A DNA stretch of 64,000 nt, from positions 1 to 64,000 of the forward strand of contig JAPOPW010000045.1 in assembly GCA_026712715.1 (NCBI GenBank), given 5' to 3'. Position numbers and translations under genes: made by a program. Every line of letters starts with the position of its first letter. The stretch's first letter is position 1. The DNA comes from Immundisolibacterales bacterium (GTDB lineage: Bacteria > Pseudomonadota > Gammaproteobacteria > HK1). Shown here in pieces: positions 1,886 through 10,754 of the stretch. The notes beneath the pieces are model-generated. The model saw nothing but the letters and a program-made list of their open reading frames with translations, made no database searches and had not been told where the DNA came from.

Positions 1886-2356
1886 TCAGGGCCGGTCGGC
1901 GAGGAGGCGCGCCATGAGTTCGGGCGACGGCGGCGGTGGCGGTGTCCAGCCCGGTGGAGCCCATGGCGGCGGATGCCGGCCTGCGATCTCGCGGCTCTCT
2001 TCAGCATTGACGAGGCCGCTGAACGGGTGCGAGCTTCGAAGGCGCTGTCCTTCGTCCGACGGGTCAAGCAGGACTGCGCGGATCTGCGTCCAGGGGCGAT
2101 CGAGGATCGTGCGCCATTCTGTACTTGCCCGGGATAACGTCCCCCGCCGGGCGCGTTCGCGCTCGAGGTTCTCGAAGGCGATCTGGAGCCGTACGGGATC
2201 TTCTTCGATGCGCTGGACGATGAGGCGGCAGGCGTCGAGGATGCGCGCGTCGATGTGTGGGTGGCCGACGCCGCACTGTTCGGGCTTGACGCCCATCTCT
2301 TCAAGCGAAGGGATGCGTTCGGCACCGAGCGGCGATCGGGCGTTTTGATCGGTCAT
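1886..2356 (-). CDS. Hypothetical protein, Pro-rich C-terminus
   Basis: About 156 residues from the ATG at 2356; the frame stays open upstream to 2473, but the extension is low-complexity and probably untranslated. The sequence is mostly charged helices (DARILDACRLIVQRIEEDP) and ends in a proline-rich tail (PPPWAPPGW, PPPPPSPE). I do not recognise a family. It is the last gene of a minus-strand series running from the ubiquitin-like operon at 5.5 kb, so it could be a distal member of that transcription unit. Confidence 0.5.
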   Translation of the reverse strand: MTDQNARSPLGAERIPSLEEMGVKPEQCGVGHPHIDARILDACRLIVQRIEEDPVRLQIAFENLERERARRGTLSRASTEWRTILDRPWTQIRAVLLDPSDEGQRLRSSHPFSGLVNAEESREIAGRHPPPWAPPGWTPPPPPSPELMARLLADRP

Positions 2357-2478
2357 TGGTTTGGTCCGTCTGTCGTCCGCGTCCGGGTCGATCTCGGCCT
2401 CGAAGGGAATGCTGCCGCAATGACATCCCCCACGTCCATCGTGTACTCCCGTTCGTCGCGGTCGCGTCGACACGCACG

Positions 2479-2850
2479 CTATCCGGATCCCCCGACCTGG
2501 CCGAGAAGCACCCGGTCCATCTTCGGCTCGTCCCAGCGCCGCGTGACCGTCGACCAGCGCTCCATCAGCCGGAGCATCTTGGGGTCCCCGGCGAGCTCCT
2601 GGAAGGTGTAGAGACGGTCGACGACCTCGCGCATCAGGTCCCGCATGGCATCGTCATCGAAGTGCGAGACCTCGGGCCAGGGGATGCGCCGTCCGTCCGC
2701 ATCGATGACGGTCACGTCGGAGTAGTCCCCGGTACGCGTAACGGGGACAACGCCGGCGTGGAGGTTGTCGAGCTTCGTGTTGCGCACGCAGAACATCGCC
2801 ATCGCCTTGGCGACCTCGGCGCGCAAGCCGCGTAGCAGTTCTTCATCCAC
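2479..2850 (-). CDS. Hypothetical protein, 123 aa
   Basis: The protein has normal composition, predicted helices at both ends and a central beta segment (DVTVIDADGRRIPWPEVSHFDDD). No catalytic motif or membrane segment is visible and I do not recognise the family. It sits 123 bases from the next gene on the same strand (1886-2356 from its ATG). Coding is supported by regular amino-acid composition compared with the opposite-strand frames, which are arginine-rich. Confidence 0.6.
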   Translation of the reverse strand: MDEELLRGLRAEVAKAMAMFCVRNTKLDNLHAGVVPVTRTGDYSDVTVIDADGRRIPWPEVSHFDDDAMRDLMREVVDRLYTFQELAGDPKMLRLMERWSTVTRRWDEPKMDRVLLGQVGGSG

Positions 2851-2976
2851 TTCTTGGCTCCAATCGTTTGCCGTTTACGAACAGGCCGGTGCGCGGCAGG
2901 GTACCGCGCCCGGAGAGGGACCGGGGGGCCTGCAGAGTTCGAGTTGGTGGCACGATGGCGGTCAGCGCTGGTTGGT

Positions 2977-3252
2977 TCAGAGGCCGTCAAACTTGTGCCG
3001 GTGGCACGCGATGAAGTCGCGCCTGGGCCACAGGTTGGGTTCAGAGCCCACCGGATGGAGATATTCCTTGCGCTCGTGCCAATGTGCGGCACGAACGACG
3101 AGCTTCAGGTCGTACCGCCAGTTCCCGACCTCGACGTACCACTTCTTCGATAGGTCGCCGCGGTAGACCTCAAGCATGGCGAGGGGGCCCACAGCGCGGA
3201 ACTCTTCAAGCGCAAGTTCGACTCCGCCCCGTGTGACATCCTTCACTGCCAT
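2977..3252 (-). CDS. Small hypothetical protein, possible ScoMcrA-like head domain
   Basis: From the ATG at 3252 this is 91 residues; the frame also stays open to 3330. The pattern ALEEFRAVGPLAMLEVY, then WYVEVGNWRYDLKLVVRAAH, recalls the N-terminal head domain of ScoMcrA-type modification-dependent endonucleases, which carries a similar helix-strand-strand-helix with a conserved R-Y-D-x-K. That assignment is from memory and weak. No HNH nuclease domain follows, so if correct it is an isolated reader-type domain. It lies directly downstream of the JAB-E1 gene on the same strand. Confidence 0.45.
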   Translation of the reverse strand: MAVKDVTRGGVELALEEFRAVGPLAMLEVYRGDLSKKWYVEVGNWRYDLKLVVRAAHWHERKEYLHPVGSEPNLWPRRDFIACHRHKFDGL

Positions 3253-3401
3253 GAGCACATTGAACCAGAAGACAGAGCCGGATTCTGAGGTAGTCCACGA
3301 TGCGCTTCCCAGACTGGACGGGATGTTCATCCGATGCTCGGGTACCGAACACCGGATGGGCCTCCAGCTCCTAGCTCGGTTCTGAAGAAACAGCGATTTA
3401 G

Positions 3402-4952
3402 TCAGGAAGCCACCGCAGCCACCGCCCGCCTTATCCTCCTTCGGAATCTGCGAAGCGAGTGCTTGACGCGGTCACGCCACCGTTGTCGCGGCTCCACCAG
3501 GAACGGGTATGGCGGTCGGCCATCTTGACCAAGCCCGAGTCGCTTGCTTCCAAACTCACAGGTCCCGACGCATCGACCCGGATGCTCAAACGGGACTGTC
3601 TCAGCGTCAACGAAGCGGTGTTCGAACGACCACCGACCCGCAGTTGGACTGTTGTCGTGCCACCAATCTTCACCAACGAGGTAGCGGACGAGGAGTCGGA
3701 TCTCTTCGGCCGCAACGACATTGCAAAACGCAATCGTGTTCTGACCGGGCTCGGGACCGTCCTCGGGCTCACCGTTGATGTACCGCCCGGCACGCCTGGT
3801 CCCCATTCGCTCGTCTCGCGCATCGCTGCTCGAGTACTGCTCCCGACAACGCAGGCAACGCATGTCGGGCCCGACGAGATGCACGCACCATTTGGCCGAG
3901 CGCAAGCGCTCCCCCGAATCCACGAGAACGCCGCCGTCAATGAGCGGCAGGCAGTTTGAATACGCGATGTGGTTCAGCACCTCTCGAGCCTCCGCATTGT
4001 CGACACAGCACACGATCACGTCCGCGTCAGCGGCGAGGCGGTACGCCCGCTCGGTGCGGATCGACAACGGCACCGCCCGAACAATGAGCCTGCCTGCAGT
4101 GCCGACAGCGCGGACGTGTTCTGCCGCGACATCCACCTTTCGCAGCCCCAGACAGTGCCGGTCGGCGTAGACCAATCGGTCGAGGTTCTTTTCCTCGACC
4201 ACGTCGGCGTCAATGATCGTGATCTCCTCGAACCCTGTCCGCGCGAGACCCTCGAGCACAATCGAGCCGACGCTCCCCGCACCAACGACGCAGATATGGG
4301 TACGAGCGAGCCTTGTCTGCGCGTCGGTCCCCCAGCTGTCCAGTGTCCGCACCAGGCTTTGTTGACGAACATACGGCGGGTGCGCTCCGGGCGCCCAATC
4401 TGCCCGAGTGCCCCGCGGTCCGATCCTCCGCACGTCCGTGCAGTGCACCGGGGCAACGCATCCCCGCCCCGACTCGTGCCAGAACCGCGCGCTCCAAACT
4501 CCGTCTGCGCCCATCGTCAGACCAAGCAGGGGGAGCTTCGTCTCCCGGATGAACGGCGCAATGATGTTGCGCTCAGTATCGTCGTCCATGCCGCTCAGCG
4601 CCTGCCAGCCGGGCCCGGGATGGCTGTGGAGAACCGCAACTCCAGCGTGCGCCCCTAGCGCGCGGTCCACAACGCGATTGAGGTATCCGCCGAGCACCGT
4701 GACGTTGCCGTGCAGATCCCGGTCGCCGTCGTGCGGAAGAACGGCTTCACCGAGAATCCCGGTGTAGCGGTTCAGGCCGTCGCCCGGGCGCCACAGCGCC
4801 AGACAGGCCTCCTCCTGCATCCCCTCGCCTTCGAACCCACTCAGAAGATGGTCCGCGAGCTCACGGTGCAGCGCCTCTCGGAGCACAACTCGATGCTTCA
4901 ACGCGTGCTCCAGATCCTGCGAACGTGACGGTTGAGGTAGGTGCTCATGCAC
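3402..4952 (-). CDS. JAB/MPN isopeptidase fused to E1-like (ThiF) enzyme
   Basis: This 516-residue fusion has two enzymatic halves. Residues about 20-165 are a JAB/MPN metalloprotease with an intact JAMM motif: H109-S-H111-P, S120, D123. Residues about 200-430 are an E1/ThiF adenylating domain: GAGSVG at 224-229, D248 for nucleotide binding, N256-x-x-R259, K272 and D318 (CVDN). A CxxC pair lies at 366-369 and a basic tail ends the protein. In known families the E1 half adenylates a ubiquitin-like C-terminus, while the JAB half trims or removes it. The ATG at 4952 overlaps the E2-like gene by 55 bases; a GTG at 4886 is an alternative. Fusions of this kind accompany bacterial ubiquitin-like/E2 operons. 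Confidence 0.88.
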   Translation of the reverse strand: MHEHLPQPSRSQDLEHALKHRVVLREALHRELADHLLSGFEGEGMQEEACLALWRPGDGLNRYTGILGEAVLPHDGDRDLHGNVTVLGGYLNRVVDRALGAHAGVAVLHSHPGPGWQALSGMDDDTERNIIAPFIRETKLPLLGLTMGADGVWSARFWHESGRGCVAPVHCTDVRRIGPRGTRADWAPGAHPPYVRQQSLVRTLDSWGTDAQTRLARTHICVVGAGSVGSIVLEGLARTGFEEITIIDADVVEEKNLDRLVYADRHCLGLRKVDVAAEHVRAVGTAGRLIVRAVPLSIRTERAYRLAADADVIVCCVDNAEAREVLNHIAYSNCLPLIDGGVLVDSGERLRSAKWCVHLVGPDMRCLRCREQYSSSDARDERMGTRRAGRYINGEPEDGPEPGQNTIAFCNVVAAEEIRLLVRYLVGEDWWHDNSPTAGRWSFEHRFVDAETVPFEHPGRCVGTCEFGSKRLGLGQDGRPPYPFLVEPRQRWRDRVKHSLRRFRRRIRRAVAAVAS

Positions 4953-5323
4953 TTTCCGCCCGGTGTCTCGATCTGGTCCCAGAAATCACTCGGCGGGGCG
5001 CTGATCCCCAACCACGCCTGTCCTTCGGCGCATTCGTAGTGAGTGACGGCTCCGGCGGGCCTGGAACCCCTTACCTGCTGCTCCAGGACAGCATCCGGCG
5101 GTGACAGGTACAGCCAGTGGGGCGCCACCTCGGGCCACTCCCCTTCGTTCTCGTGCACCGCAACCGCCAGGGTCACCGACTCACCTGCTCGACTGCCGTC
5201 CTCGATGCGGTACTCAAACCTCACCCCTTCCGCGCCACCTTGGTCCTTGGGCGCGGTGAACGGCTCGGGTCGATAGCTCAGCTCGACGAGCTCCGCCGCC
5301 ATCCGCTGCGAGTTGGTGCTCAT
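4898..5323 (-). CDS. E2-like ubiquitin-conjugating fold protein
   Basis: The 141-residue protein lies between the ubiquitin-like and E1 genes, in the position of the E2. A UBC-like pattern is visible: a beta strand, EWPEVAPHWLYLSPPD at 62-77 resembling the E2 P-x-x-P-H element, then a segment where the catalytic Cys would normally lie (GQAWLGISAPPSDFWD, 101-116). No Cys occurs at the classical position; the cysteines are C98 and C125. The nucleophile may therefore be C125, C98 or a hydroxyl residue. The ATG overlaps the stop of the preceding gene (ATGA), so the two are translationally coupled. Confidence 0.72.
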   Translation of the reverse strand: MSTNSQRMAAELVELSYRPEPFTAPKDQGGAEGVRFEYRIEDGSRAGESVTLAVAVHENEGEWPEVAPHWLYLSPPDAVLEQQVRGSRPAGAVTHYECAEGQAWLGISAPPSDFWDQIETPGGKCMSTYLNRHVRRIWSTR

Positions 5324-5562
5324 GCGAACGGCGCACCCTTGTCCGGGGCCGCCCGGAACACGTTGTACTTGTCGAGCTCCACCACCTGCCCCGACTGGAA
5401 CGTCACGTCCGAGTCAGGAACCGTGAGCACGTACCCAGTCTTCTCGGGGTCCTGGCCAATGGCCTTGCCGGCGAACGCGGCTTGCAAGAGCACCGCCGCG
5501 TCGACCGCGCGCTCCTCAGAGAAGAAGGTCTCCCCGTTCACCTTGTACTCGTACTGGTTCAC
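5320..5562 (-). CDS. Ubiquitin-like protein (single multiubiquitin-type domain)
   Basis: This 80-residue protein starts at a GTG preceded by a good ribosome site, AAGGAG six bases upstream. The fold pattern is beta-hairpin (YEYKVNGETFF), helix (AVLLQAAF), strand (GYVLTVP) and final strand (VVELDKYNVFRAAP). This matches the bacterial multiubiquitin-type beta-grasp family, here one copy. It ends in KGAPFA rather than a terminal diglycine, so conjugation would need an unusual terminus or trimming by the JAB domain. It is first in the operon with the E2-like and JAB-E1 genes, which is the strongest support for the call. Confidence 0.78.
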   Translation of the reverse strand: MNQYEYKVNGETFFSEERAVDAAVLLQAAFAGKAIGQDPEKTGYVLTVPDSDVTFQSGQVVELDKYNVFRAAPDKGAPFA

Positions 5563-5654
5563 GCCAGTCTCCTTCGAGTTGTCTACACTGTCCGGCGACC
5601 CTGCCTCCTCGGCCCAGACGGTTCCGGGGCTTCGGAGGCGTCGCCTTGAGGTTT

Positions 5655-5685
5655 ATGTTACCATCTTTCCCTGTCATTTTGTCAA
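5655..5685 (-). promoter_or_regulatory. Candidate promoter of the ubiquitin-like operon
   Basis: On the minus strand TTGACA (5685-5680) is followed after 19 bases by TAACAT (5660-5655), in an AT-rich patch between two divergent operons. The spacing is longer than ideal. The same patch probably also holds the operator of the divergent XRE regulator. Confidence 0.4.
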
Positions 5686-5715
5686 CCAAGGGTTCACGTC
5701 AATGGGGAGAAACGC

Positions 5716-6795
5716 ATGTTTGGACAACGACTCCGGCTCGCCCGCAAGCGGGCAGGGCTTTCCATGCAGTCACTTGCCCAGCAGATGACCCCGCAAGTTA
5801 CCGCCCAAGCCATCAGCAAGTACGAATCGGGCAAGATGATGCCCTCGTCGGCGGTCCTCGTCGGTCTGGGAAAGGCGCTCGACGTGTCGCTCGACTTCCT
5901 CATGAGCGCTCAAGTGGAGGCGCTCGACGGACTCGAGTTCCGCAAGCATTCCCGGACCTCGGCGCGCGACCGCGCCAAGGCCGAGGCGGTGGTGATCGAC
6001 AGCCTGGAGCGCTATCTCGCGATCGAGGAGATCCTCGAACTTTCCCCGCCGGTCGACGCGTTCAGGGACGTGCGCAGCGACAGCGTCGCCACCGAGGCCG
6101 ACATCGACGACAAGGCCGACGCGCTCCGGAACGTCTGGCAGCTCGGGATGGACCCAATCCCTAGCCTGTGCGCCCTCCTCGAAGACAAGGGAATCAAGGT
6201 GATCGTCGGCGACCTTCCCGATCGCATCAACGGATTGGCATGCGACGTCCTGCGGGAAGGCAAGCGAGTGGCGGAAGCCGTCGTCGTTTCAGAACACGCC
6301 AATGTAGAGAGAAAGCGATTCACCCTCGCCCACGAGCTCGCGCACCGAATCATCCACTCCACGGGCAACCCGGCAATCAAGCTCGAGGTCGCAATGAACC
6401 GCTTCGCGGGCGCTTTCCTGGTGCCGGCGAAAAGTCTTCTGGAGGAGACCGGAGCGGCGCGCCGCCGCGTGACCTACCACGAGATCATCCGTCTCAAGCA
6501 CACCTACGGCGTGTCCGCTGCAGCCATGCTCATGCGCCTTGGCCAAGTTGGGATCCTGCGCCCCGCCAGTGTCCAGCACGCCTTCGCAACCTTCGCCCGT
6601 TCATGGCGCAAGGACGAGCCGGAACCCATCGGCGGTCGCCGCGGATTCGCCGCCTTCGAAAAGCCACGTCGCTTTGAACAGCTCGTGTGGCGCGCTGTCG
6701 GCGAAGAACTCATCTCGCCAGTGCGTGCAGCGACGCTTCTCAACCAATCGCTCGCCGCCGTCGAACAGCAGATCAGCGGTCCGCCTCACCAGTGA
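5716..6795 (+). CDS. XRE regulator fused to ImmA/IrrE metallopeptidase
   Basis: Residues 1-65 are an XRE helix-turn-helix (LRLARKRAGLSMQSL, then AISKYESGK). Residues about 140-265 are an ImmA/IrrE-type zinc peptidase with HELAH at 206-210. In known members the peptidase cleaves a repressor or partner when triggered, and the HTH represses its own promoter. Length is 359 residues, normal for the fused form. It is divergent from the ubiquitin-like operon across a 153-base AT-rich spacer and overlaps the following PIN gene by four bases (GTGA). It is thus either the antitoxin of that toxin or a damage/phage-responsive switch for both operons. Confidence 0.88.
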   Translation: MFGQRLRLARKRAGLSMQSLAQQMTPQVTAQAISKYESGKMMPSSAVLVGLGKALDVSLDFLMSAQVEALDGLEFRKHSRTSARDRAKAEAVVIDSLERYLAIEEILELSPPVDAFRDVRSDSVATEADIDDKADALRNVWQLGMDPIPSLCALLEDKGIKVIVGDLPDRINGLACDVLREGKRVAEAVVVSEHANVERKRFTLAHELAHRIIHSTGNPAIKLEVAMNRFAGAFLVPAKSLLEETGAARRRVTYHEIIRLKHTYGVSAAAMLMRLGQVGILRPASVQHAFATFARSWRKDEPEPIGGRRGFAAFEKPRRFEQLVWRAVGEELISPVRAATLLNQSLAAVEQQISGPPHQ

Positions 6796-7301
6796 ACCGG
6801 ATCATCGTCAACGACGCGTCCTGTCTTATCGACCTTCGCAAGGGCGGTTTGCTGACCGTCCTCTGCGAACTGCCGTACCAGCTGGTTGTCCCGCTGCCTG
6901 TGCGCGCATCGGAGATTCTCGACTTCTCCGACGACCAGTGGCGCCTCCTCGACCGTTCAGGCCTGATCACGTATGACTTGCCAGGACCGGAAGTTGCACA
7001 GGCCCTGGCGCTCCGACAGCGCCGTCCTGCCCTCTCACCAAACGACTGCTTTTGTTTTGTCACAGCCCTCGTGCATTCCGGAATCTTGCTCACGGGCGAC
7101 GCCCCGCTCCGGCGCTTCGCGACCGAGAACGGCATGCAAGTACACGGCGTGCTGTGGGTGATCGATGAACTCGAAGCGAACAGAGTCTGCCCCACACCGT
7201 TGCTGACTCACGCGCTACGAACTTGGCAAAGCGACGACGCGGTGTTCCTTCCCGAAAATGAGATCTCCGCTCGGCTCGAGAGCATTGGCGCTCAGGAATG
7301 A
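6792..7301 (+). CDS. PIN-domain (VapC-like) nuclease
   Basis: The 169-residue protein starts at GTG 6792 inside the stop of the XRE-ImmA gene. It has the PIN acidic set: D8 and the NDASCLIDL start, E41 (ASEIL), D in SPNDC and D in LTGDAPLRR. PIN domains are Mg-dependent RNases, usually toxins of type II toxin-antitoxin pairs. Pairing with an XRE-ImmA/IrrE antitoxin rather than a small VapB is a known but less usual arrangement. A hairpin without a T-run follows at 7344-7362. Confidence 0.82.
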   Translation: MNRIIVNDASCLIDLRKGGLLTVLCELPYQLVVPLPVRASEILDFSDDQWRLLDRSGLITYDLPGPEVAQALALRQRRPALSPNDCFCFVTALVHSGILLTGDAPLRRFATENGMQVHGVLWVIDELEANRVCPTPLLTHALRTWQSDDAVFLPENEISARLESIGAQE

Positions 7302-7677: not shown

Positions 7678-8391
7678 TCAGGACTCGTCGACGTCGAAGG
7701 TCCAAGAGTGGAGCGCCGACCCGTTGACCTCAAGGAGGCTCAGCCGATTCAGGTGCTCGAGCCCCGTCCCGGTGTCGATGTTCCAGCGGTTGAAGGTCGT
7801 CTTGACCTCCTTCACCGGCCAGTGACCGTGCACGAGCGCCCGGAGACCCTCCACAGGCCGTGCCCGCACCCGGGCCTCTTCCTCCTCGGTCTCGAATCCG
7901 AGCAGCGCGATGTCGGCGATGCCCGCCGAGCCGCTCGAGAGCCCCTCGAGCGCCCGGTCCCAATTCGGATCCGGCACCTGCGCGTGGATCACGCCAACCG
8001 CCCCGTACGGGGTCTCGATGGTCAGGGCGAGCGGCATGTTCAACAGCGCGGCGTACCATCTCTCGTAGTCAACCCGGTTGACCTTCCGGAGCCAACCCTG
8101 CGCCCGCTCCCGGGAACCCAGAACCTTCGCCAGCATCCAGTCCAGGACCGGACGCTCGTGGTTGCCCATGGTCACCGCGTCAAATCGGCTCTCGAGCCAG
8201 GTAAGAGCCTCTTCGGAATGAGGACCCCGGTTCACGAGGTCCCCGACTCCGAAGAGGCGGTCGCTGCTCGGGTCGAACTCAAGCTCGGACAGGGCGCGAT
8301 CGAGCGTGCGGAAGCAGCCGTGGACGTCGCCTACGACGAGGTCTCGACCCGCTTGGTTGATGTCGACAGTGCGAGCGAAGGTGGACATCAT
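7678..8391 (-). CDS. Metallophosphoesterase (PrpA/PrpB-like Ser/Thr phosphatase)
   Basis: All hallmarks of the PPP-type metallophosphatase are present: GDVHG (21-25), GDLVNRG (50-56), GNHE (76-79) and the C-terminal VHGHWP. At 237 residues it matches lambda-phosphatase/PrpA-size enzymes that dephosphorylate proteins or dinucleotides. A start three bases inside (second Met) is equally likely. It follows a broken integrase piece, and a decayed copy of the same gene lies at 8650-8960, so it belongs to a duplicated mobile segment. Its substrate cannot be inferred. Confidence 0.85.
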   Translation of the reverse strand: MMSTFARTVDINQAGRDLVVGDVHGCFRTLDRALSELEFDPSSDRLFGVGDLVNRGPHSEEALTWLESRFDAVTMGNHERPVLDWMLAKVLGSRERAQGWLRKVNRVDYERWYAALLNMPLALTIETPYGAVGVIHAQVPDPNWDRALEGLSSGSAGIADIALLGFETEEEEARVRARPVEGLRALVHGHWPVKEVKTTFNRWNIDTGTGLEHLNRLSLLEVNGSALHSWTFDVDES

Positions 8392-8397
8392 CGTCTC

Positions 8398-8640
8398 TCA
8401 CTCGCAGGATTGGTCTTCCGGATCGTCGCCGTGACCGTGCTGACGGTTCTCGGCCAGAAGCGCAAGGAGTTGCGGCGAGACAGGAACACGGTACTCGCGA
8501 TGAGACCTCTGCCGTTCTGCGGGCACGGTCCAAACGGTACTCGCGAGGTCCAGTTCGTCGCAACGTGCGCTTCGAGCCTCGCTGGAACGCGCGGCGGTCA
8601 AACGAAGGAACCTGGAGCAAAGCTTGATGAAATCCGTCAT
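8398..8640 (-). pseudogene. Integrase fragment (core of P4-like tyrosine recombinase)
   Basis: The 80 residues align with the middle of P4-family integrases: LRLTAARSSEARSARCDELDL, where R of the RSSE loop is the first catalytic Arg, then VWTVPAE and VPVSPQLLALLAENR. The N-terminal arm-binding domain and the HxxR/Tyr C-terminus are absent. It is wedged between a decayed and an intact phosphoesterase and is a remnant. Confidence 0.75.
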
Positions 8641-8649
8641 GTTCTTTCC

Positions 8650-8960
8650 CTATGCTGGGAGCTTCCAAAGTCTTGAAGGTGTAGGCGTCGTACCGACTCG
8701 GGGAAACTCTCCCGAGCCAGCAATGAGCCCGAAATTGGAACCCGGGGTGAAGAGGCAATCGAGGTTTCCGGGGGTCGCCGCATGGAACCGCTGCGCAAGG
8801 CAATGAAGAACGAGGACCTCGGTTTCCGAGGTCCCCAACTCCGAAGAGGCGGTTCCGGCGTGGCTCGATCCGAGGGAGCACTCGTGGACATCACCTACCA
8901 CGGGGTCTCGACTGGCCTCGATGAGCCTGACCAAGGAGGGGCGCGTAGGCGTCATCGTCG
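8650..8960 (-). pseudogene. Decayed copy of the metallophosphoesterase
   Basis: Pieces of the phosphoesterase at 7678-8391 are recognisable in two frames: DPVVGDVHE in one, and RLFGVGDLGNRGPRS in another further on. The catalytic Gly after the first motif is changed and at least one frameshift separates the pieces. No complete frame remains. Its neighbours on both sides are integrase fragments, showing that the integrase-phosphoesterase unit was duplicated. Confidence 0.7.
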
Positions 8961-8962
8961 CA

Positions 8963-9538
8963 TTATCCTTGGAACGCATCTGGCAGCACGTACGCACCCC
9001 AGTCCTCCATGACCTTGCGCCGAGGGACGAGACGCTCGGACGGGCAGCGAACGTTGTGCATATCAGGTATGGAACGACCAAGGCAGAGCTCAGCGTGATC
9101 GTGGAGGACACCGGTCTCTGCGCACCAGTCGCGGAAGCTCGCCCGGAACGAGTGGGGAGTCACCTGGATTCCCAGTCGTCGAAGAAGAATGGAAAGAGAG
9201 GAGGCGGAGAGGGGGCCACCACGAGTGTTCGGAAACACGGGCCCTTCACCGCTACCAAGCTCGCGGGCCTCGGCGAGGACCGCCAGAGCTTGGGGCGAGA
9301 GCGGGACGCGAAGCCTGCGACGGGACTTCATCCGATCGGCGGGTACGGTCCAAACAGCCCCCTTAAGTTCCATCTCGTCCCAGCGTGCGTGGAAAACCGT
9401 GGTAGACGGCATCGCGGTGAGAACCTGGAACTCGAAAGCGAGCCGCACCGAACGAAGTGCGTCGGATGCACGCACGCAGTGGAGGATCCCGGCAACCTCG
9501 GCGTGAGGCGGTACCGTAGTGTTGGTGAAATCTGACAT
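8963..9538 (-). pseudogene. Integrase catalytic-domain fragment, active-site Arg lost
   Basis: About 191 residues align with the C-terminal half of P4-like integrases: VWTVPADRMKSRR, LAVLAEARELGSG, VTPHSFRASFRDW (the HxxR box) and VMEDWGAY. The first catalytic Arg loop is replaced (VLTAMPSTTVFHARW instead of an RSGEVR-type loop), and the region around the nucleophilic Tyr is degenerate (SIPDMHNVRC). The N-terminal domain is missing. It is non-functional and lies between the intact integrase and the decayed phosphoesterase. Confidence 0.78.
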
Positions 9539-9557
9539 TGCTTCATTCCTGTGAGGC

Positions 9558-10754
9558 TCAAGCTGATTTTCCATGAACAACGTCGCCCCAATCACTCATG
9601 ATCCGGCGACGCTGTTCAACGAGATTGGTTCTGAAATAGGCCCTCATCGTGGCATCCCCCACCTGATGGTGCAGGCAAATCTCGGCCTGAATGTGGTCAC
9701 GCTCGGTCTCTGCACACCAGTCGCGAAAGCTGGAGCGGATGCCATGAGGAGTCATGCCCAATTTGTGGGCTTGGAGTAAGGCCGCAAGTGTGTTAGCCCC
9801 CAAGAAACCGGCAGCACCCCTGCCAGAGAAAACAATGTCAGGATCGTCACCGACAAATTTGCGTGATTCATCTAGAACATGAATCATGCGAGAAGTAAGA
9901 GGAATAGCGTGCGGTCTCTTGCTCTTCATACGCTCACGAGGAATGGTCCAAACCTTATCGGCAAAGTTGAACTCCGAGTAGCGGGCGAAACGCACTTCAG
10001 AGGACCTGAGTACGGACAAGAATAAGAGTTTGGCATAGAGCTTGCTGATTTCCATCGCTCGGCTTTGGTGGATGGACTGGAAAGCCGCAGCAACTTCGGT
10101 ATAGTGCAAGGAAAGACGATTACTGCCCTCTTCAGGAGTTTCCAGTGCTGTCGCCATTTTGGCACGGGCGGGATTATCTATGCGTAGTCCCTCTTCGATT
10201 GCCCAATCGAAGATCAAGGATAGATCGACCTTTACCCTAACAGCCGTTGGGTTTTGGTTCTTCCAGATCGGTTTCAGAATTCTAAGGACGTGTTTTCTGG
10301 TGAATTCAGTAACAGGCAGTTCCTTCACCGTACTTGGAACGTAGTTTTCGAAGCGAGTGTTCCAATCACGTACCGTTTTCTTGGGATTTTTCCATTTGCT
10401 CTTTCGAACCTCGAGCACCATGAGAGCTACTTCCCTGACAGTCGGCACAGAAGGAATTGTCCGAACCCGGTCGAGTTCAATCTTTGGCTCTTTTCCTTCC
10501 CTCAACCAGGCACGACACTGATCGGTGAGGCCGCGGGCTTCAGCAAGCGATACATCGCGAACGCTCCCAAGTCCTACCTCGGGACGGTAGTCAGGTCCCT
10601 TGTGGTGAGCGCGGAAAATCCAAGAACCGTGACCGGTCCCGGTCGTGTCAAGACGAAGACCCTTCCCCTGACCATCGTACAGCCGAAGCTTTTTGTTCTT
10701 CTTCAGGGCAGCTTTGACAGCCCGGTCTGTCAACATAGTACCCATGCGCGGCAT
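9558..10754 (-). CDS. P4-like tyrosine integrase, apparently intact
   Basis: The 398-residue protein has the N-terminal DUF4102-type arm-binding domain (LTDRAVKAALKKNKKLRLYDGQ), a central SAM-like domain and a catalytic domain with the LRSSEVR Arg, the PHGIRSSFRDW HxxR box and the Tyr of MRAYFRTN. The ATG has a strong site, AAGGAGG, about six bases upstream. The gene is markedly AT-richer than its surroundings and has a more Lys-rich product, which supports recent transfer. P4-type integrases usually insert at tRNA 3' ends, but I see no tRNA in the window, so the attachment site may have been lost. Confidence 0.92.
   Translation of the reverse strand: MPRMGTMLTDRAVKAALKKNKKLRLYDGQGKGLRLDTTGTGHGSWIFRAHHKGPDYRPEVGLGSVRDVSLAEARGLTDQCRAWLREGKEPKIELDRVRTIPSVPTVREVALMVLEVRKSKWKNPKKTVRDWNTRFENYVPSTVKELPVTEFTRKHVLRILKPIWKNQNPTAVRVKVDLSLIFDWAIEEGLRIDNPARAKMATALETPEEGSNRLSLHYTEVAAAFQSIHQSRAMEISKLYAKLLFLSVLRSSEVRFARYSEFNFADKVWTIPRERMKSKRPHAIPLTSRMIHVLDESRKFVGDDPDIVFSGRGAAGFLGANTLAALLQAHKLGMTPHGIRSSFRDWCAETERDHIQAEICLHHQVGDATMRAYFRTNLVEQRRRIMSDWGDVVHGKSA

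Follow-up and report, generated by a model that had tools for sequence, protein, structure and literature searches.

Operons that encode a ubiquitin-like protein (Ubl), an E2/RWD-like protein and a fusion of a JAB peptidase with an E1 enzyme were described by Iyer, Burroughs and Aravind in 2006 as class 6e (PMC1779556) and were later named Bub. The entry for this class is built around Ubls of two to three repeats and a protein Y that binds metal, with the E2/RWD-like gene placed between the Ubl and JAB-E1 genes and lacking the E2 cysteine. One member with a solo Ubl is included, and neither an alanine tail nor a toxin–antitoxin partner was found in that entry (PMC1779556). Hundreds of Bub operons are known, DNA-damage controllers lie beside many of them, and antiphage activity has so far not been shown for Bub operons, according to a published survey (PMC13373217, citing Gong 2025 and Ye 2026). 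Two other groups of systems are related. Bil (BilABCD) encodes its E1 (BilD) and JAB (BilC) separately, and CBASS with Cap2/Cap3 has a CD-NTase gene and an E2-E1 fusion. The control of CBASS and Bub operons can involve CapH and CapP, an HTH repressor and an M78 protease encoded beside the operon promoter. In RosmerTA toxin–antitoxin systems, antitoxins of the RmrA family are paired with several toxins, PIN-like proteins among them (PMC10440598).

The locus described here is found in an Immundisolibacterales bacterium (assembly GCA_026712715.1, contig JAPOPW010000045.1), of which positions 1 to 64,000 of the forward strand were analyzed, hereafter the window. The operon is located on the minus strand. 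The Ubl gene (BubA-like; 5320–5562) begins with GTG and encodes 80 amino acids, comprising a single beta-grasp domain that ends in GAPFA. Its stop overlaps the start of the E2-like gene (BubB-like; 4898–5323; 141 amino acids) in an ATGA, and the JAB-E1 gene (BubCD-like; 3402–4901; 499 amino acids) follows from a probable TTG start. The open frame of the latter reaches upstream to a GTG at 4952 (4952–3402 as listed). The TTG at 4901 is the likelier start because it forms a TTGA overlap with the E2-like stop and because the starts of relatives match, as in the 499–500-residue proteins of loci L036 and L037. All JAB-E1 residue numbers refer to the 499-residue form; adding 17 gives those of the original prediction (e.g., H109, R259, D318). 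On the plus strand, separated by a divergent control region (5563–5715), lie a gene for an XRE-type HTH protein with an ImmA/IrrE domain (M78, HELAH), an RmrA-like antitoxin or regulator (5716–6795; 359 amino acids), and a gene for a PIN-domain protein, its probable toxin partner (6792–7301; 169 amino acids; GTG start). The last two genes overlap in a GTGA.

The original prediction had proposed three coupled genes, forming an operon of the type foreseen by comparative genomics. This is borne out, as all three reading frames are intact, run on the minus strand with successive start/stop overlaps, and encode the Ubl, E2-like and JAB-E1 proteins in the predicted order. The same order was searched for in other genomes and found again in dozens of them, and it is therefore far beyond chance. 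As the folds and sequences are nearest to Citrobacter BubA, BubB and BubCD or to multi-ubiquitins, the operon is, by sequence and predicted structure, a Bub operon. The class is already known, and this is not a new system. The fusion of JAB with E1 and the single-domain Ubl had been implied to be new, but row 6e of the 2006 classification (PMC1779556) already includes both. Antiviral activity, which the original prediction mentioned for some Bil and Bub systems, has so far not been reported for Bub operons (PMC13373217). The possible novelty lies in the subclass with an alanine tail and in its combination with an RmrA/PIN module.

Three features that mark the Bub class were found: a JAB domain at the E1 N-terminus with JAMM and E1 residues intact, a Ubl encoded upstream, with one beta-grasp domain where the class has one to three, and a separate, sandwiched E2/RWD-like protein without a conserved cysteine. 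With the solved Citrobacter structures (PDB 9ea4, 9ea5, 9ea8, 9eae, 9eav and 9d59), the locus shares the JAB-E1 fusion, the beta-grasp Ubl, a BubB-fold E2-like protein with an aligned serine, and stress controllers nearby. It differs in that the Citrobacter type has a glycine-ended BubA fused to BubB and a DUF6527 gene, whereas the Ubl here is single-domain, encoded apart from the E2 and alanine-ended, the E1 keeps a CxxC...C site, and the DUF6527 gene is absent. Unlike Bil, JAB and E1 form one protein, and the PADLOC match to BilD is weak (9.3e-8) and covers the E1 part only. Unlike Cap2/Cap3, the E2-like protein has a gene of its own, and a scan of the operon and neighboring proteins detected no CD-NTase. 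Further counterparts are present on actinobacterial plasmids (Nocardioides pCHL, Clavibacter pCCa, M. avium pP7a and Rhodococcus pRWAY01), which share the gene order, the alanine-ended Ubl, the HSR serine of the E2 and the E1 CxxC. Their JAB-E1 proteins are 32–37% identical to that of the window. These operons differ in their controllers: some have a HigA-M78 protein plus a HigB-like toxin, others a sigma factor together with a further protein and one of M78 type.

In Pfam, the JAB-E1 protein scores against ThiF (3.5e-36), and by far its best match among solved structures is Citrobacter BubCD (9ea4; phmmer 2.5e-24, profile 4.7e-35). Neither the JAB domain nor either of the two small proteins received a Pfam call; the JAB domain was recognized through comparison with the solved BubCD and through 61 aligned JAB-E1 sequences. 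The two lines agree that the JAB and E1 are united in one enzyme, as had been proposed. The key residues of both halves, said in the original prediction to be present, are invariant in all 61 sequences. These are E30, H92, H94, S103 and D106 of the JAMM site, whose core HSHP...S..D (residues 92–106) is encoded at 4584–4628 on the minus strand, and N239, R242, K255 and D301 of the E1. The glycines of the nucleotide-binding GxGxxG (residues 207–212; 4266–4283, minus), for which the ThiF match is further evidence, are also invariant (n = 61). Two cysteines of a CxxC (C349 and C352; 3846–3857, minus) are conserved in 61/61 and a third, C448, in 59/61, and together they probably form a zinc site. 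In alignments this CxxC...C site is missing from Citrobacter BubCD, and identity to an Enterobacter homolog of that Citrobacter-type protein is 27%.

The AlphaFold model of the Ubl (pLDDT 79.8) has bacterial multi-ubiquitins as its nearest folds (Z 9.3–8.2), followed by ubiquitin and NEDD8. The structure prediction thus agrees with the beta-grasp fold claimed for the 80-residue protein. Its C-terminal residue is Ala80 (codon 5325–5323). Among the 11 members of the window's clade GAPFA is invariant, with short extensions after it in two. Across 63 Ubls of the subfamily, the C-terminal residue is alanine in 54, serine in five, threonine in one and glycine in one, and in the remaining two an alanine is followed by an extension. 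Extensions and fusions are placed just after the final Ala/Ser of the Ubl and not after a glycine. In a Ubl-E2 fusion from a distant genome (G380), the junction lies right behind TVS, the same tail with which flavobacterial Ubls end. Citrobacter BubA instead ends in glycine, as does the Ubl of one further operon (L110). This operon (3800–6503 in genome G003, of the same family as the window genome) is a glycine-tail Bub operon, with a multi-domain Ubl ending in TTEG, a separate E2 with WSRH, a JAB-E1 and a DUF6527 gene. Among the scanned loci, phmmer found DUF6527 only in L031 and L032, and also in L110; it found none in any Ala/Ser-tail locus scanned. The Ala/Ser tail, the E1 CxxC...C and the lack of DUF6527 together define, at the level of sequence, a subclass of Bub. 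Since most members have a Ubl tail that is ready for use without maturation, deconjugation is probably the only task of the JAB domain.

The claim that the middle gene is E2-like stands as regards the fold and not as regards an ordinary cysteine E2. The model (pLDDT 92.8) is matched best by Citrobacter BubB (9eae_C; Z 8.9, rmsd 3.6, 117 aligned residues), with E2/UEV proteins next (Z up to 7.4). The BubB match came from a second structure aligner, and Foldseek alone returned no significant match for this model. The Pfam families PF14462 (Prok-E2_E) and PF14452 (Multi_ubiq) did not match the two small proteins of the window; one relative (L028) matches PF14452 at 2.8e-11. In the alignment, the E2-like proteins have no conserved cysteine, even inside the close clade. 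C98 and C124 were considered as the catalytic cysteine and rejected, as neither is conserved among the 66–78% identical clade members. Four residues, P64, P68, S108 and R135, do not vary across 29 E2-like proteins, and S108 (codon 5002–5000) is the sole invariant hydroxyl. In the model S108 sits after a strand and is followed by a short helix and then the final one; the catalytic cysteine of E2 enzymes occupies the equivalent place. Profile alignments pair S108 with the serine of WSRH in two Citrobacter-type proteins, although one of these alignments is weak (probability 1.6%). The actinobacterial HSR motif had been equated with H95 in the first multiple alignment, and was moved to S108 by the flavobacterial proteins and the profile alignment. 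We infer that S108 is a serine nucleophile of the E2-like protein, with a scaffold role as the main rival. Conjugation by Bub systems is reported to take a non-canonical, perhaps serine-based route, in which case the serine part is already known.

The conserved unit is, on sequence evidence, the five genes from 3402 to 7301 (approximately 3.9 kb), namely those for the Ubl, E2-like, JAB-E1, XRE-ImmA and PIN proteins. Nucleotide similarity among the clade loci starts at the PIN stop codon and stops at the JAB-E1 stop codon, and only L036 and L037 share more. A scan of genome contigs yielded 65 loci. Ten of these encode a JAB-E1 66–78% identical to that of the window and come from metagenome-assembled genomes (MAGs) labeled as Alphaproteobacteria, Acidobacteriota-type lineages, Gemmatimonadota, Desulfurellaceae and Dadabacteria, several on contigs of 147–731 kb. 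The exact number of host phyla is soft because MAG labels can be wrong. Nearly all other loci are 32–40% identical and belong mostly to Actinobacteria, Flavobacteria and Chloroflexi-type MAGs, the last few being short or partial matches. Within the window's own phylum, the E2-like protein was found in only 2 of 398 genomes. The fusion-bearing genome G380 (locus L106), a distant member of the same class, keeps the five-gene arrangement at 33–39% identity. No relative was found in the scan of viral contigs, and the matches in phage records were partial, low in identity and confined to the E1 half. A tblastn search of plasmids with the E2-like protein gave no match because the protein is too diverged. 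From these distributions, Bub cassettes of this kind appear to be rare and to move horizontally.

The divergent half of the cassette resembles RosmerTA, in which an HTH-ImmA antitoxin adjoins a PIN-like partner (PMC10440598), and differs from it in being closely and divergently linked to a Ubl operon. The XRE-ImmA protein matches M78 (2.1e-16) and HTH_3 (4.9e-11) in Pfam and RmrA in PADLOC (7.8e-48), and the adjoining protein matches PIN (8.2e-5). Compared with CapH and CapP, the HTH and M78 domains here form one chain and are accompanied by a PIN gene. The HTH-ImmA gene is found in the same divergent place, 74–76% identical, in seven close relatives, and one more retains a fragment of it; the PIN gene holds the same position in six (58–64% identical). 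In L033 and L041 the contig stops inside or just past the HTH-ImmA gene, and in L040 and L042 no HTH-ImmA gene was detectable. The HTH-ImmA/PIN pair also occurs without a Bub operon in three other genomes (L107–L109). Given the pairs that stand alone and the operons that lack the HTH-ImmA gene, the conserved association is not an obligate one. Within the 153-bp intergenic region (5563–5715), a TTGACA on the minus strand (5685–5680) is invariant in an alignment of nine loci; a strict scan of the region gave no full sigma-70 match. More broadly, M78-type controllers in three main architectures adjoin 39 of the 67 Bub operons scanned, each neighbor being assigned by similarity to tested examples. 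Besides the present one, the same spot is taken by an HTH-M78 protein with a HigB-like toxin, or by a sigma factor, a further protein and an M78 protein. In nine actinobacterial loci (L027, at 2834–5069, L050, L052, L054, L059, L070, L077, L085 and L091) the Bub operon is preceded by a co-directional trio of sigma factor, protein of about 220 amino acids and M78 protease, which looks like a protease-released sigma switch. Since DNA-damage controllers have been published for Bub operons, a role in control is the simplest reading of the HTH-ImmA/PIN module.

Three genes downstream on the same strand (1886–3330) had been implied as members of the system, but these have no counterpart in any related locus and appear to be local. 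Of 17 genomes of the order, this one alone has the 117- and 123-residue proteins. The 195-residue protein (1886–2473, minus) is commonplace in the family, and contig C71 of this genome carries a second copy with 92% identity. By eye, the 117-residue protein (2977–3330, minus) is like the head domain at the N-terminus of modification-dependent nucleases of the ScoMcrA type, and it has a weak library match to mREase_IV (E 0.02). On the other side of the cassette, an intact tyrosine integrase (9558–10754, minus; Arm-DNA-bind_3 and Phage_integrase) is accompanied by two truncated copies of its family (8963–9595 and 8398–8640, minus), and a calcineurin-like phosphoesterase (7678–8391) adjoins them. 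The integrase copies (8398–10754) are what is left of repeated integrations next to the cassette. Near the start of the window, two LysR genes stand in tandem (392–1300 and 1416–1709); the second retains its HTH domain only, as though an insertion or a deletion had struck the island's left edge.

The reading preferred here, with a probability of roughly 0.65, is that of a mobile five-gene cassette in which an operon of the alanine-tail Bub subclass is joined to a RosmerTA-like HTH-ImmA/PIN module that most likely controls it. In the unstressed cell, the HTH-ImmA protein would repress the shared divergent promoter region and restrain the PIN toxin. By analogy with CapH and CapP and with RosmerTA, infection or DNA damage would trigger the HTH-ImmA protease, resulting in derepression of the operon and release of PIN. 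The E1 half of JAB-E1, whose residues are in place, would then adenylate the Ubl at Ala80 without prior processing. The E2-like protein would next receive the Ubl, probably on Ser108 and not on a cysteine, and hand it to a target. The JAB half, with its active-site residues present, would take the Ubl off again.

Parts of this scheme have alternatives. The E2-like protein could be a catalytically dead RWD/UEV-like scaffold, with the E1 passing the Ubl from the adenylate to a target or to itself. The missing cysteine and the high rank of UEV domains in the fold comparison fit such a role, and Iyer and colleagues termed the family inactive (PMC1779556). We regard it as doubtful, as one serine that is invariant in 29 divergent proteins and aligned with the Citrobacter-type BubB serine would be unexpected for a scaffold. 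The JAB domain could instead trim the Ubl after Gly76, removing APFA, so that activation would take place at a glycine as in ordinary ubiquitins. The invariance of this glycine in the 11 clade members and the fusion of the protease to the E1 would suit that order of events. The wider relatives argue against it, as they have no glycine there (APVA, AQVA, TVS), and the C-terminal extensions and the one fusion follow the final Ala/Ser; trimming is thus judged improbable.

As to control, the HTH-ImmA/PIN pair could be a neighboring stabilization module with no functional connection to the Ubl operon, as TA pairs gather on mobile islands, this pair also stands alone, and two close relatives lack the HTH-ImmA gene. 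This is considered unlikely, given that the cassette edges enclose these same five genes across hosts labeled as several phyla, that the 33–39% identical version in G380 preserves the arrangement, and that other Bub operons carry different M78 controllers at the same spot. The opposite extreme would be a single device, in which the alanine-ended Ubl is conjugated through the serine E2 onto the HTH-ImmA antitoxin or onto PIN and so gates the toxin; this idea is speculative and is given a low probability. A ThiS/MoaD-type sulfur carrier serving biosynthesis rather than protein conjugation could be imagined, given that the fold is common to E1s throughout the ThiF/MoeB superfamily and that the window E1 retains the CxxC. 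It is very hard to reconcile with a cassette that has no metabolic genes, with the absence of a GG tail, which would require a thiocarboxylate on alanine, and with the E2-like partner, the JAB fusion and closest solved relatives that are Bub proteins.

To our knowledge, all E1-activated ubiquitin-like proteins expose a C-terminal glycine. The Ala/Ser-tail subclass is widespread in bacteria, and the only invariant candidate nucleophile of its E2-like partner is a serine. If the preferred reading of the cassette is true, an Ala/Ser-ended Ubl with a serine E2-like partner would mean that ubiquitin chemistry is not tied to glycine and cysteine. The operon and its toxin–antitoxin switch appear to have been carried intact between hosts labeled as several bacterial phyla. 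With the bond between the two conserved within about 3.9 kb, the cassette may serve as a compact system for asking what Bub operons do.
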